Shown here: one piece after another, positions 48,222 to 53,809 of the stretch
Position numbering within the stretch: the stretch's first letter is position 1
Layout: each line of letters opens with the position of its first letter
DNA from: Pseudomonadaceae bacterium
Lineage (GTDB): Bacteria; Pseudomonadota; Gammaproteobacteria; Pseudomonadales; Azotimanducaceae
Length of the DNA stretch: 64,000 nt
Assembly (NCBI GenBank): GCA_024743175.1
Contig: JANSXA010000005.1
Coordinates: 62,001 to 126,000 of the forward strand
Direction: 5' to 3'
Notes under the pieces: generated by a model
The model's database searches: none
Seen by the model: the letters and a program-made list of their open reading frames with translations, nothing else
Told to the model about the DNA's origin: nothing
Program-made: the position numbers and the translations under genes

Positions 48222-49892
48222 CTAATGCATGTCATTATTATCGATCTGTCGGTGCAGTGGCGCAGGGTCAAGTGGAATAATCGACAACATATCAATGTTC
48301 TTAGGCGTCGCCTCGCCGTCACAGGTGATTTGCAGTTGGTGATCTCCTGGGGACAAGTCGAGTCTTTCGAAGACTTTCACGTAGTACTGTCCATGTTCAC
48401 TGGCGTTGTTAGACAGGTCCACGAGACTCTGCTCTCCATCCAGAGCTACACTTACTCTCCCAGCTTCAGCGTTTCTGAACGCGTAGTACTGCACCGCTGT
48501 ACCGCTGAAAGTTATTTCCGCAAGACAATCAGCCTGGCCCAAGGTCAAAGTCGCCCCGGAGGCGTTCCATTGCTGATCAGCAGTGGTGAAACCGTTGTAA
48601 TGCCAGCGCGGGTCTGTGTCTTCAATGGTCTCCCAGGGAACAATCGTCTCTGCAACTGCTGCTCTAACAATGTCGCTGTGCATGGCCGGAATCAGCCATT
48701 TGCCATCAACAACCTTGCCTCCCATGCCCTGCACCACTACGCCGTCGATGATATCCAGGCTGCGCGACGCCATGTCATTGAAGTTATCGGGTGCTGCAGG
48801 AAAGTTGTAACGTGTGCGAGTAATCAGATAGTCATCCGAGAAATCGGTTTTATCGAAGTGTTCCTGGAGCCCCTCATAACCGTAGAGCAATCCCAGCAAT
48901 CCTCCCCAGGTCGCCGTCGGATTGTCCGAATCCCAACCCGCCAGGGTGCCAATACGAATGGTCTTTTTATAGTCACCTTCACCATACAACAGGCTGACGA
49001 TCGAAGCGGCGAAGTTGATGCCTGAGTCCCAGGGATATTTGTATTCATAACCCGCCGCGCCCTGAACCTGATAGCGTTCATAAACCCTGTTGCGGGTTTC
49101 CTCCCAATTGTCCTTGTCGGTGTTGCGCTCATATTGTGCTTTGACAAAGTCATACATGTCCGCGATGTACGACCAGTCCGGTACGCGCTTGCGGGCTTCC
49201 TGCGCCATCCAGATCACCTGCTCTTTGCGTGATAAGCCGGGATCGGCCAGAGCAACCAGGGAATGCATGATCACGTAGAACTCGGCAGCCCATTCAGAGT
49301 GCAGATAAGCTGTAGTACGGATCGGCAGATGCGACATCCGCAGCGCCACATCGGGGCGTGCCGGGGCCATGGCACCAAAAATCTCGGTGGTCAGCTGCGC
49401 ATCAATCATGTCCCACATTGGATTGTTTTCAGGCAGGGACGTCGCCGGCGGCAGCATACCGTTCTGCATCTGCCCAAGGGCCGCAAGGTTCGAAACCCAC
49501 AACAACGGAAGCCCTATGTGTGTCTGCCATGCAGCGGCTATCTGTTCAGCGGAGAGCAGGTAGCTATCGTTCTGCGCCATCGCCTTTTGATAAACATATT
49601 CAATATCCGTGTCATCGTCCGCACCCCATGGGGCATTGGACAATACGTAATCAACAAACTGCCCTTCCCGACCGATCTGCTTTTGCCAATCATCGTCATT
49701 AAAAAAGGGTGGCGCAGCGCGTACATTTTCAGTTGGCAAACCAGTCCAGTTTGCAATAGAACTGCCGAGCCAGAATCCACGCAATTTGTCATGGTATTCG
49801 CTGCGGTCGATTTCAATGTTGGCACTGTCCCCGCAGGCGGCCATCTGAACCAGCAGAATTGCATATAGCAAAAACTGTATTGCCAACTTCAT
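48222..49892 (-). CDS. exported ADP-ribosylglycohydrolase-family lipoprotein
   Basis: 556 aa. Lipobox LVQMAAC (Cys20) predicts a lipoprotein. The ARH fold follows: KLRGFWLGSSIANWTG (about 36-51), the metal-binding ADDDTDIEYV (Asp92-94, Asp96) and AGWDSDNPTATWGG (about 325-338). ARH enzymes usually cleave ADP-ribose from proteins in the cytoplasm; an exported version more likely acts on another N- or O-glycoside. The last about 130 residues (QWNASGATLTLG onwards) look like a beta-sandwich of the carbohydrate-binding sort. It lies upstream of the DUF1330 gene. Confidence 0.8.
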   Translation of the reverse strand: MKLAIQFLLYAILLVQMAACGDSANIEIDRSEYHDKLRGFWLGSSIANWTGLPTENVRAAPPFFNDDDWQKQIGREGQFVDYVLSNAPWGADDDTDIEYVYQKAMAQNDSYLLSAEQIAAAWQTHIGLPLLWVSNLAALGQMQNGMLPPATSLPENNPMWDMIDAQLTTEIFGAMAPARPDVALRMSHLPIRTTAYLHSEWAAEFYVIMHSLVALADPGLSRKEQVIWMAQEARKRVPDWSYIADMYDFVKAQYERNTDKDNWEETRNRVYERYQVQGAAGYEYKYPWDSGINFAASIVSLLYGEGDYKKTIRIGTLAGWDSDNPTATWGGLLGLLYGYEGLQEHFDKTDFSDDYLITRTRYNFPAAPDNFNDMASRSLDIIDGVVVQGMGGKVVDGKWLIPAMHSDIVRAAVAETIVPWETIEDTDPRWHYNGFTTADQQWNASGATLTLGQADCLAEITFSGTAVQYYAFRNAEAGRVSVALDGEQSLVDLSNNASEHGQYYVKVFERLDLSPGDHQLQITCDGEATPKNIDMLSIIPLDPAPLHRQIDNNDMH

Positions 49893-50016
49893 GGGTTAAC
49901 CCTTACTCTCATTTTTCCATCTTAGCAGGAGGTTGCTATTCCGTGTTTTTGAGTGGCCTGCGAAAAATCGAAAGAACCCGGAAAGCTGCCACAATCCAGG
50001 GCTGTAAATCTGAACC

Positions 50017-51198
50017 ATGGTAAGACTCACTGATCTACCCGAATACGAACGCGAACATCTGCTCTCTAAAAATCAGCCACCGCTGGGGCCACCTGTCTGG
50101 ACACCACCCGGCAAAGCAATATCTGAGCTACGTATTGCACTCATCACCACCGCGGGGCTGCATTTTCGTGATAACCCGAGCTTTGAATTCGCCGATTCCA
50201 CGTTCAGGCCGATTTCAGATGATGAAGACGCCAACAATCTTGTTATGTCACACAGCTCGGTCAATTTTGACAAAACCGGATTCACCCAGGACGTCAACCT
50301 CGTCTTCCCTATAGACCGGTTCAGAGAGCTTGAAGCGCAGCAGAAGATTGGATCGCTGGCGGCAGTGCACTACAGTTTTATGGGTGCCGGCCTGGATCCA
50401 CACGCCTATGAGAAAAGTGCATCTCAAGTGGCCAGTCTTCTGAAACAGGACAAAGTTGATGCGGTTTTCCTGACTCCGGTCTGACCCAACTGCACGCGTG
50501 CAGTCTGCGCGCTCAGCTACTTCCTTGAACGCGAAGGTATCATGACCACCGGTATCAGTATGGTGCGGGAGAACACCGAGAGCATGCAGCCTCCCCGAGC
50601 GTTGTGGGTCAGCTTTCCGCTCGGCCGCCCGCTGGGTAAGCCCGGTGATGCGGCCTTCCAACATCATGTTATAGAAGCCGCTCTCAACCTGTTGACCGAG
50701 GAAAGCGGCCCGGTACTGGTTGATTACCTGGAAGATGCGCCGGACGTGGTGATCAATGACTCGCCCGCTTGCCCGGTGTCATTTGCAAAACCCGCTGAAG
50801 ATACGGATACCTGGGAAGCCATACTGTTAAATGAACTGCAGGCGCTTACGCCATGGCACGATCTGGGCAGACGCCGCCGTAACGGCCGCACGCTTGTGGG
50901 TGTATCCGAGTTTTCCATGACAGATAATCTGCTGAAACTAGGGCAATTACTCGACACCAACACCTTACCAACAGCAGAACTCAAATGGTTTAAAGCTGCT
51001 ATTGAGGATGCCAAGGTGTTCTATATTGAAGCGCTCACTGCGCAACCTGGCGACTACGATCACAATCAGATTGAGCAGATCTTCTGGCACGAGACGCGCA
51101 TGGGTGCTGCGATTAGAAGGTTTGCGGAACTGTTTCTCGAACATCCCGAGCTATCAGCCTTTGCCAGAATCATCGCACCAAGAAACGTTTCAAAATAA
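50017..51198 (+). CDS. selenoprotein of the GrdB/PrdB-like reductase family (Sec encoded by TGA)
   Basis: 393 aa if TGA at 50482-50484 is read as selenocysteine (Sec156). The frame is continuous on both sides: 155 codons before, 237 after, with protein-like sequence throughout. The context FLTPV-U-PNCTRAVCALSY is the redox motif (UxxC) of the glycine/betaine/sarcosine/D-proline reductase selenoprotein B family. The N-terminal VRLTDLPEYERE and VMSHSSVNFDKTGF are typical of its proteobacterial branch. These are reductases of unknown substrate here. Selenocysteine needs SelA, SelB, SelC and SelD, none of which lies in the window. A dioxygenase gene follows after 22 bases. Confidence 0.88.
50481..50516 (+). 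promoter_or_regulatory. candidate SECIS stem-loop
   Basis: Just after the Sec codon, ACTGCA (50489-50494) pairs with TGCAGT (50499-50504) around a CGCG loop. CTGA containing the UGA can pair with TCAG at 50513-50516 as an outer stem. Bacterial SECIS elements sit directly downstream of the UGA and are bound by SelB. The upper loop is small, so the exact fold is uncertain. Confidence 0.45.
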
Positions 51199-51220
51199 AC
51201 AGCACAAGCGAGGGTCAGCC

Positions 51221-52066
51221 ATGAACATCAACCCCATCACCCCAAGTTTTGTTGCCGACATTTCCGATATCGACATCAGGTCAATATCGAATGATGAATT
51301 TGAAGTGCTTTACCAGGCCTGGCTCACCTACGGCGTACTACGCATACGCGGGCAGCAACTTAACGAGAACGAACTCCAGACCTTCAGCGCCAGATTCGGA
51401 CCGTTAGAAGAAATCCCGATGGGACGATTACCTGAATCTGAGCGCGCCAAAATCAAAAACCACTACGTCACCCAGCTGTCAAACATCATCGAAGATGGCA
51501 AACCAATAGGCGGGCTTGGTAACGCGGAAGCCAATTGGCACTCCGACATGACCTACGTTGAAAACCCGCCTCCCGCCAGCGTTCTTCTGGGTGTTGAGAT
51601 ACCAGACGAGGGCGGTGATACCTATTTTTCCGACCAGAACGCAGCGTTGGCCGCGATACCACAGGCACTCGTTGGTCGCTTAGGTAAACTGTCGATCAAA
51701 CATGACGCTGCGCACACCAGCATTGGCAAACTGCGGCCAGGCTTCGAGCCTTTTGATGACCCTCGGGATGCGCCCGGTGCAAGTCATCCGACTATCATCA
51801 CCCACCCGGAAACCGGCAAGCACGCGCTGTATCTGGGCCGCCGTGAGTGGGCCTACATAGAAAATCTGTCACTTGAAGACAGTGAAACTCTGCTGGATGA
51901 GATCTGGTCTTACGCTGCTCGCACGGAGAATGTTTGGCGGCAACAATGGCGACCTTATGACCTGATTATCTGGGACAACCGCCGGGTGCTGCATCGTCGC
52001 GATGACTTTGATTCGAATTCGCGACGATTGATGAAGCGTTGTCAGGTGCTGAACAGAATCGCCTGA
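51221..52066 (+). CDS. TauD/TfdA-family Fe(II)/2-oxoglutarate dioxygenase
   Basis: 281 aa from ATG 51221, with GAGGG upstream; the open frame to 51002 lies inside the selenoprotein gene. Iron ligands are His107 and Asp109 in NWHSDMTY and the distal His258 in VLHRRDDF; an Arg in RRLMKR binds 2-oxoglutarate. The family hydroxylates taurine, 2,4-D, carnitine precursors and similar small acids or amines. With the selenoprotein 22 bases upstream, a shared substrate such as a methylated amine is possible but not shown. Confidence 0.9.
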   Translation: MNINPITPSFVADISDIDIRSISNDEFEVLYQAWLTYGVLRIRGQQLNENELQTFSARFGPLEEIPMGRLPESERAKIKNHYVTQLSNIIEDGKPIGGLGNAEANWHSDMTYVENPPPASVLLGVEIPDEGGDTYFSDQNAALAAIPQALVGRLGKLSIKHDAAHTSIGKLRPGFEPFDDPRDAPGASHPTIITHPETGKHALYLGRREWAYIENLSLEDSETLLDEIWSYAARTENVWRQQWRPYDLIIWDNRRVLHRRDDFDSNSRRLMKRCQVLNRIA

Positions 52067-52116
52067 CTTTCTTCCTGCGCAGCGCCGCTGTGTCTCATAC
52101 TATCCTGTTTGCCGCA

Positions 52117-52563
52117 TTAATCTGGGCCACCCGGCTCGACCTGATTCAAAGTGCTTTCTCCGGGAGTAACAAATAACATACGAGTTGGCGCGTGAGGCCT
52201 TGCGGTGTGCCAGGTGTTTCTGGGTACAAGCACATAAGATCCAGGCTCATTCACCCGCACCGTCTTATCACCATCAGCGGTACGCAGGATAAAGTCAGTA
52301 TCACCTTCCAGAAGATATACAAACTCATCTCCGTGTGGGTGTATCTCCCAGGTTGGCCACGCTTCGTCAAAAGAGAACGTCATCACCAGCACGTGCTGTT
52401 TGAAGCTGTGGAAATCTCGATCCAACTCAGCGTAGAAATTTTCAGATAAAGGCTTAACAATGCCACTACCCTCTGGCGTCATGATCAACGGCGCCGCAGC
52501 CAGTTCGTGTGGGCCTGGGTCTTTTTCCATAATTAATCCGTTAGATATTGAGCCACTCGACAT
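52117..52563 (-). CDS. cupin-domain protein
   Basis: 148 aa; an ATG at 52527 (MEKDPG) is another possible start. One cupin barrel with IHPHGDEFVYLLEGDTDFIL (metal-ligand histidines and glutamate) and PRNTWHTARPH (final histidine). Such small cupins may be dioxygenases, isomerases or sensors. It is convergent with the dioxygenase gene. Confidence 0.85.
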   Translation of the reverse strand: MSSGSISNGLIMEKDPGPHELAAAPLIMTPEGSGIVKPLSENFYAELDRDFHSFKQHVLVMTFSFDEAWPTWEIHPHGDEFVYLLEGDTDFILRTADGDKTVRVNEPGSYVLVPRNTWHTARPHAPTRMLFVTPGESTLNQVEPGGPD

Positions 52564-52678
52564 TGGTTTTACAAGAAACTCGAACGTCAGGCAATACTCC
52601 AGTAACCGTCTTGGTTAGTAGAGATCAAACCTGATTCTGCACTATCATCGTCATTCAATTCGCTGACGAACTATTCGC

Positions 52679-53809
52679 ATGTTAAGACTGGTAGTACTTA
52701 CACTTCTCACTCTTCTTTCGCAAATCAAAATATCTGCTGAGGAAGCTTTCAAAGGTTGGCCGGAAGATAAGGCAACTGTCTATTGCGGCGCTATGGCGAT
52801 GTTCAATCAGTACCTTAATGCTGACAGCGATGGAAATCTGCCACCATATACAGAAGACCAGCAATACTGGTGGGACCAAACATTGGCCCTCTATCCGGAT
52901 AAAGATGAGCTGCAACAGGAACTGACGCTGGCCGGACAGAGCTTTGAGGCCTATTTTCTCAGAGCAAGCGCAAACGAGACAAACCCTGACGTCACACGCA
53001 ATGCACTGGCAGCTACCCAGGACACAACGTGCAGCAAATACCGTATAGAAAGAAGGATTCGCGAACTCAAAACTCTGCGTGCCAAACAACAGCTGACGCT
53101 TGATGCACACAAAGAAATCGCGCGCCGCGAAAAAGCCGAGCAATCCATCACTTTTGATGAGCCCCCATTCGTAAATCTGCGAAATAACGAAAGCGCCGCC
53201 ACATTAGACATCTACTTTTCACTGGGCTGTAACCATTGTCTGCTTTTCCTGGATGAACATCTCACCGGGTTGTTGAAGCTCAACCGGGAAGGTCGCCTCA
53301 ACCTCCGGTTCCTGGAAGTGCCTGGACTCACGCCTTACATGATAGGGAATGGAACAATCGATCGTCCCACCGTTGCTGCTCGCCAACGAGCTCAACTGGC
53401 TTCGCGTTACGCTGCCTGCGCAGCTAAGCAGAGCCCTGCATCTTTCACGGATTTTGTTACACAGCTCATGGCATCTGCACAAGCTTATGTTCCCACGATT
53501 GAGACACAGGACTGGGAATACTATACACATGCCGTTGCCGCTGATTTCCAGCAGAACAGCCCGGTCAGATCGGTACAGGACATGCTTGCAAATACAGCAA
53601 AACAACTGAATATATCTGTTAGCTCCTGTGATGAGACTTTTGCGAAAACCTATACTGAGCAGGCATTTTCCATTCTGAAAACTCTGCGCGGAGAAATTAA
53701 CGTCCCGTTCTATCGATTTAATGGCGCGTACTATCTTGATGGCGACGCGCATGAAAAGCTGTTAACGGATCTCAAAACGTATACCAGCCGCTTGCCTGTC
53801 GTCCGGTAA
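52679..53809 (+). CDS. secreted thioredoxin-fold protein with CNHC motif
   Basis: 376 aa. Signal peptide (about 1-20, LTLLTLLSQIKISA). A helical N-terminal part (about 21-160) precedes a thioredoxin-like domain: LDIYFSLGCNHCLLFL (Cys184, Cys187) and a cis-proline at INVPFYRF near the end, as in DsbA/DsbG-like proteins. It probably forms or reduces disulfides in the periplasm. First gene of a five-gene operon; its stop overlaps the next ATG (TAATG). The following exported proteins are rich in cysteines and could be clients. Confidence 0.75.
   Translation: MLRLVVLTLLTLLSQIKISAEEAFKGWPEDKATVYCGAMAMFNQYLNADSDGNLPPYTEDQQYWWDQTLALYPDKDELQQELTLAGQSFEAYFLRASANETNPDVTRNALAATQDTTCSKYRIERRIRELKTLRAKQQLTLDAHKEIARREKAEQSITFDEPPFVNLRNNESAATLDIYFSLGCNHCLLFLDEHLTGLLKLNREGRLNLRFLEVPGLTPYMIGNGTIDRPTVAARQRAQLASRYAACAAKQSPASFTDFVTQLMASAQAYVPTIETQDWEYYTHAVAADFQQNSPVRSVQDMLANTAKQLNISVSSCDETFAKTYTEQAFSILKTLRGEINVPFYRFNGAYYLDGDAHEKLLTDLKTYTSRLPVVR

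Follow-up and report, generated by a model that had tools for sequence, protein, structure and literature searches.

A predicted long-form GrdB/PrdB-like selenoprotein and its TauD-type neighbour in proteobacteria

Does a reading frame that is interrupted by one TGA and continues behind it in the same phase encode two proteins or one, and what would such a protein do next to an Fe(II)/2-oxoglutarate dioxygenase? Both questions are raised by a locus in the window, the stretch of 64,000 nucleotides of an Azotimanducaceae genome analyzed here (host assembly of 4.7 Mb in 18 contigs, 98.17% complete). The first-pass annotation had reported two frames in one phase with the TGA at 50482 as their sole separator, and reading the frames bears this out: the gene opens with an ATG at 50017, the frame resumes in the same phase after the TGA at 50482-50484 and stays open up to the TAA at 51196-51198. 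Gene callers without selenocysteine (Sec) decoding would split 50017-51198. The features discussed below are as follows:

50017..51198, plus strand: predicted selenoprotein gene, 393 codons plus TAA, with one UGA read through (frame analysis and relatives)
50104..50724, plus strand: GrdB/PrdB-like alpha/beta domain, residues about 30-236 (PF07355, TIGR04483, AlphaFold2)
50482..50484, plus strand: TGA, predicted codon of selenocysteine 156 (codons of relatives, genomic Sec machinery)
50491..50493, plus strand: codon of Cys159, second half of the UxxC motif (Cys in 58/58 aligned sequences, window included)
50496..50512, plus strand: SECIS-like hairpin with a 7-bp stem and a GUN loop, 11-nt spacer behind the UGA (covariation)
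50770..50772, plus strand: codon of Cys252, a possible resolving cysteine that is followed by Pro in a flexible linker (Cys in 56/58 aligned sequences)
50812..51192, plus strand: C-terminal domain peculiar to the long form, predicted to be all-helical, residues 266-392 (AlphaFold2; E338 and W357 invariant)
51221..52066, plus strand: TauD/TfdA Fe(II)/2-oxoglutarate dioxygenase, 281 aa, 22 nt past the selenoprotein stop (PF02668)

The 393-residue read-through product has U156 within FLTPV-U-PNCTRAVC, that is, in a UPNC motif, and its aligned start, MVRL, is common to many relatives. These relatives were gathered with two peptide patterns, which gave 294 stretches and 248 relatives, of which the best 80 were kept. 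Because residue 156 is absent from both patterns, the scan was blind to codon 156, yet the aligned codon is TGA in 79 of these best 80 of 248 relatives and TGT (Cys) in the remaining one (L041), which argues that the TGA is not there by chance; two more relatives beyond the 80 loci also have TGA. The in-frame UGA is thus conserved, with Cys as its sole alternative in this set. The pattern that the first-pass annotation had set against a selenoprotein, namely sense codons other than those for Cys or Sec at this position together with downstream decay, is not seen: only Sec and Cys codons occur in the best 80 of 248, and the downstream half of the gene is conserved among relatives. Since the scan retained the best 80 of 248, further Cys forms may exist among the other relatives. 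Additional internal stops in three loci (L026 at codon 28, L039 at codon 119, and L028 at codon 381) are probably errors or decay. An ungapped comparison with L019 gave, for codon positions 1/2/3, identities of 0.88/0.91/0.50 over residues 1-155, 0.90/0.90/0.51 over residues 157-245, and 0.70/0.86/0.42 over residues 260-380, a pattern indicating that both halves evolve as protein; the same kind of comparison broke down for L024 in the last stretch.

All four components of the Sec machinery that the first-pass annotation had proposed to look for, selA, selB, selC, and selD, are present in the own genome. Profile searches recovered selA (518 bits against a cut-off of 267.9), selB (424.7 against 242.25), and selD (270.9 against 125), and the tRNA-Sec at C7:279356 was found both by ARAGORN (anticodon TCA) and by the Rfam model. 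The selA and selB genes lie directly upstream of tRNA-Sec, and selD lies about 11 kb off. The latter is part of a 725-aa open frame (L012:1408-3585, minus strand, on G000:C7), in which it stands behind a pyridine nucleotide-disulphide oxidoreductase domain (PF07992, residues 18-303). Together with the codons of the relatives and the conserved downstream half, the machinery bears out the selenoprotein proposed earlier, and the gene almost certainly reads its internal TGA as selenocysteine.

Among the relatives, the genomes of 40 of the 80 loci were tested for SelA and SelB, and tRNA-Sec was sought in 10 of those genomes. SelA scored above cut-off in 35 of the 40, SelB likewise in 35, and tRNA-Sec in 6 of 10; at least one component was present in 38 of the 39 tested genomes with TGA. 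Some systems appear partial. The L019 genome has SelA and SelB and a tRNA-Sec match of 43.2, below the cut-off of 47, and in the L038 genome SelA is accompanied by a SelB fragment of 135 positions that scores below cut-off. SelA matches are lacking in the genomes of L032 (tRNA-Sec above cut-off), L020 (tRNA-Sec by ARAGORN, below the Rfam cut-off), and L081 (SelB and tRNA-Sec above cut-offs). The last of these is the complete genome of Desulfosediminicola flagellatus, which carries a long-form gene with TGA and on which the SelA model is silent; its SelA may be divergent or missing. No Sec component was found in the 2.0-Mb assembly of L028, a TGA locus. The genome of L041, which encodes the Cys form, gave no SelA match and nothing above cut-off for SelB or tRNA-Sec; its best tRNA-Sec candidate (46.9 against 47) is a tRNA-Ser according to ARAGORN. 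G763 (the genome of L035) has two SelB-type places and three tRNA-Sec matches, all above cut-off, and G764 (the genome of L036) has two SelB-like places, one of them above cut-off; perhaps the Sec system is duplicated in these two genomes.

Behind the UGA, the relatives share a hairpin, which we assessed in 70 distinct TGA-bearing rows, with L041 excluded. The first two bases of the loop are GU in all 70 rows and 88.4% of stem cells are paired, as against 63.5% at most when the helix is slid by 1-3 columns and up to 67% with wider slides. Two-sided changes that still pair account for 23 cells, compared with a mean of 5.4 in shuffles that disregard relatedness. In L041, 3 of the 7 stem positions pair, versus 4-7 in 75 distinct TGA rows, as expected once Sec is lost. 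A bacterial SECIS hairpin is expected after the UGA, and what is found there is a covarying 7-bp helix, of which RNAalifold alone retains 3 of 7 pairs and which reappears in the single-sequence fold with an ordinary energy (z -0.81). The Rfam SECIS_1 model was silent in the own genome and equally so in control genomes, and an Rfam scan of 49800-52700 gave no match up to E 5. The SECIS of Escherichia coli has a similar spacing and GU in its loop. From these alignment patterns, the hairpin downstream of the UGA is likely a SECIS. A promoter scan of 49850-52200 returned 0 sites.

To which family does the read-through product belong? The PrdB model TIGR04483 matches residues 22-228 with 126.6 bits, below its cut-off of 300, and the selenoprotein B model TIGR01918 is a near miss (61.5 against 65.45), whereas Pfam GRDB (PF07355) is passed with 49.3 against a gathering threshold of 22, profile positions 218-345 of 347 being matched; all 58 aligned members match PF07355 at E 0.001 or better. 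Having passed Pfam and failed both TIGR models, the protein belongs to the broad GRDB family and is, by these models, not a functional PrdB or GrdB. The GrdB/PrdB-like reductase of the first-pass annotation therefore stands as a Pfam GRDB member and falls short at the cut-offs of the PrdB and selenoprotein-B models. The annotation had also matched both halves to the family; this holds for residues 22-228, the best family match, and not for residues about 240-393, a separate domain for which Pfam and NCBIfam gave nothing above cut-off (best 15.3 bits, E 0.0086, cut-off 502). Searches of the PDB with the selenoprotein found nothing better than E 0.13 by sequence and nothing convincing by fold (Foldseek; best E 4.6e-3, TM 0.21). 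Judged from these searches, the C-terminal 40% of the protein is outside the known family.

The AlphaFold2 model, built from 58 of 83 sequences (window included), has a pLDDT of 88.9 and a pTM of 0.85. It comprises an alpha/beta part up to about residue 236, a linker with pLDDT below 50 at 247-258, and a helical part at 266-392. Across the 58 sequences, U or C occupies position 156 throughout, and C159, H118, R184, E338, and W357 are invariant. The C252-P253 pair of the loose linker is present in 56 of 58, the two most divergent sequences lacking Cys252; in the model, this arrangement suggests that Cys252 may be a mobile resolving cysteine. Taken together, the profile matches and the predicted structure indicate that the protein is a long, two-domain branch of the GrdB/PrdB superfamily. 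Elsewhere in the host genome, outside the window, a single TGA likewise interrupts the frame of each of two further GrdB/PrdB-like genes (G000:C7:411044-411763, covered by L018 and L120, and G000:C4:207887-208492, covered by L118 and L119). Both match over the GRDB domain only, and the host genome total is three predicted PrdB-like selenoproteins.

Both GrdB and PrdB work with a pyruvoyl partner, and we searched for the corresponding proprotein (PF09338, PrdA/GrdE), whose partner role in the reductases is described in the available text of PMC10298544. It was found in 0 of 20 genomes (the own genome and 19 relatives), and the positive-control plasmid record was matched three times.

The first-pass annotation had named two downstream neighbours, a TauD-type dioxygenase and a cupin, of which TauD is conserved in the nearest clade and the cupin (52117-52563) has a counterpart in 0 of 82 loci (tblastn, E 1e-6), so that it was rejected as a part of the system. 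So was the ADP-ribosylglycohydrolase at 48222-49892, for which the same search again gave 0 of 82 loci. This protein (PF03747, minus strand, upstream of the selenoprotein) has an N-terminus that looks lipoprotein-like by eye. The conserved partner is a TauD/TfdA protein by profile (PF02668, E 1e-55, 190 bits against a cut-off of 27) and by H107, D109, and H258, which are invariant in 13 sequences, window included, and which we take, by alignment to TauD, to be the Fe-ligand positions. It does not pass the NCBIfam taurine dioxygenase model NF007104 (139.2 against 313), and Ile replaces the residue that corresponds to H70 of E. coli TauD, which has a role in taurine binding. For these two reasons, taurine is an unlikely substrate of the partner.

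In 18 of the best 80 of 248 loci, TauD lies directly downstream in the same orientation, with 63-81% identity to the window's TauD in the main aligned piece; in L020 the gene runs off the contig, and in L026 and L028 it is broken or partial. In a tree of 78 rows, a 19-row group with support 100/99, spanning gammaproteobacteria and alphaproteobacteria, is nearly all TauD-linked: 15 rows have TauD (window included), 3 are short of downstream sequence, and 1 (L037) is without it. Because of internal stops or undetermined bases, five loci are absent from the tree, namely L039 and the TauD-bearing L026, L028, L029, and L031. The Cys ortholog (L041:8001-9242) is located inside this clade and has retained TauD. 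In L030 (4325-6412), the selenoprotein and TauD form one open frame of 696 codons on a single MAG contig; either a true fusion or the loss of a stop codon could account for this. Selenoprotein and oxygenase need not occur together: within 1.5 kb, 55 of the best 80 of 248 loci lack both oxygenase types (TauD and the second subfamily described below), 7 of these 55 having less than 0.9 kb of downstream sequence. Neither type was found in flanks of up to 1.5 kb of 20 GRDB-domain-only loci, the host's two paralogs included, or in the 16-kb stretch around each of these paralogs, and no oxygenase was found in six other stretches, including the long-form loci L016 and L121.

Other neighbours are less regular. 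A TetR-type regulator stands beside 8 loci of the TauD-linked group (4 divergent upstream, 3 after TauD, and 1 at 1.4 kb), as detected with a profile of 8 sequences built from the same neighbourhoods, 3 of the 8 regulators being covered by a Pfam check; it is absent beside the window gene, where the nearest weak match is about 10 kb away (E 2e-4). Of 165 candidate neighbouring ORFs, 80 went through the Pfam scan. Weak matches place a second TauD-type subfamily, detected with a profile of 10 sequences built from the same neighbourhoods, nearest to FrbJ, TmpA, and gamma-butyrobetaine dioxygenase; this subfamily occurs within 1.5 kb of L027, L045, L049, L052, L054, L066, and L075 among the best 80 of 248, and L027 sits inside the TauD-linked group. 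Three of these genomes are rich in TauD-family matches, with at least 89 in G777 (L049), at least 89 in G779 (L052), and 75 in G788 (L066). With such numbers, chance neighbours are likely, and the link of the second subfamily to long forms is only a hint.

We consider it fairly probable that the gene encodes a Sec-decoded, long-form, stand-alone reductase without a pyruvoyl subunit that, in the nearest clade, acts in the same pathway as the adjacent TauD. On the sequence evidence, UGA 156 is decoded by the cell's own SelA, SelB, tRNA-Sec, and SelD; the U156 selenolate would attack an electrophilic small molecule held between the alpha/beta and the helical C-terminal domains; C159, and possibly C252 on the mobile linker, would resolve the adduct, and a thioredoxin-type donor would reset the enzyme. 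The pyruvoyl subunit, with which GrdB and PrdB work, would be dispensed with; the lack of such a partner argues against Schiff-base chemistry on amino acids, and the selenolate probably attacks the electrophile directly. In the nearest clade, one enzyme would oxygenate a small substrate and the other would reduce the substrate or product, in a pathway that, in some relatives, would have the TetR regulator nearby. That reductase and oxygenase serve one small-molecule pathway is suggested by the conservation of the pair, by the single open frame in L030, and by the regulator, and the evidence speaks against taurine and D-proline as the substrate. Tentatively, the pairing of selenoprotein and oxygenase, which hints at a two-enzyme pathway not yet described, could be taken further: a pyruvoyl-free Sec reductase (GrdB-like with a new helical domain) and an Fe(II)/2-oxoglutarate oxygenase might constitute an undescribed proteobacterial small-molecule redox pathway, and related long forms might have acquired the second, different TauD-type subfamily as a neighbour independently.

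An ordinary marine PrdB-type selenoprotein, with TauD as mere operon company and unrelated functions for the two, is in our view unlikely. It would agree with the frequency of marine PrdB selenoproteins (PMC1088965 and PMC2398784, in the parts available), with the absence of either oxygenase type beside the host's two GRDB-only TGA paralogs, and with the many long-form loci without TauD. Mere company would, however, leave unexplained a TauD that keeps its place, strand, and short spacing across gamma- and alphaproteobacteria at 63-81% identity, as well as the one shared open frame in L030, whereas no equivalent of the cupin or of the ADP-ribosylglycohydrolase was seen in the 82 loci. Distinctly improbable is a selenoprotein whose target, instead of a metabolite, is the dioxygenase (or another enzyme), which it would shield from oxidation or restore to activity: thiol repair would be compatible with the UxxC motif and a third cysteine on a flexible linker, and 2-oxoglutarate dioxygenases are prone to oxidative inactivation. 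A repair role, however, fits poorly with the 55 of 80 long-form loci (best 80 of 248) that have neither oxygenase type within 1.5 kb, and the studied members of the superfamily act on small molecules according to the available text of PMC10298544. Reduction of D-proline or glycine in the clostridial manner, for which the sequence family speaks, is very improbable given that PF09338 was not found in the own genome and 19 relatives with a working positive control and that the PrdB and selenoprotein-B scores are below cut-offs. A pseudogene or sequencing error with the TGA as a plain stop, where table 11 translation indeed ends, is practically eliminated by TGA in 79 and Cys in the other of the best 80 of 248 relatives, by the protein-like codon-position pattern on either side, and by the Sec machinery of the genome.

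The favoured reading, a pyruvoyl-free Sec reductase sharing a pathway with TauD, addresses a wider question, as we know of no role for PrdB-type proteins outside clostridial amino acid fermentation. This question is testable owing to the conserved two-gene unit, the shared open frame, the natural Cys ortholog, and two cultured species that carry the long form, Enhydrobacter aerosaccus and Desulfosediminicola flagellatus, neither with an adjacent TauD.

Reports of PrdB selenoproteins from marine samples date from 2005 and 2008 (PMC1088965, PMC2398784), and in the marine GOS data few selenoprotein families are as abundant as the PrdB type (PMC2398784), as stated in the available parts of these papers. 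Later surveys list GrdB and PrdB or proline reductase, and the long form is unmentioned in their accessible portions (PMC13188914, PMC9312934, PMC5029168). In the titles and abstract openings found, in a coverage outside which most subscription journals lie, neither the long form nor the TauD partner is described. The marine PrdB selenoproteins themselves are already known; the long two-domain form and its TauD pairing, for which we found no description, appear to be new.

Compared with known systems, the partner belongs to the same family as E. coli TauD (PDB 1gqw, E 2.4e-30) and keeps its Fe-ligand positions, but fails the taurine dioxygenase model and has Ile in place of H70. The selenoprotein resembles GrdB, GrdF, and GrdH of glycine, sarcosine, and betaine reductase in passing Pfam GRDB and in its homology around Sec, whereas its match is confined to the C-terminal part of the GRDB profile and TIGR01918 is just missed. 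With PrdB (TIGR04483), it shares homology over residues 22-228, the UxxC motif, and Sec from UGA; it differs in the extra helical domain, in scoring 126.6 bits against 300, and in that no PrdA-type pyruvoyl partner was found. As to the marine PrdB selenoproteins (PMC1088965, PMC2398784), the available parts of these papers are silent on any long form, C-terminal domain, or TauD partner. The selenoprotein has in common with them the UxxC motif, PF07355, and marine abundance, and the window protein may be among those that the Sargasso Sea and GOS surveys counted.
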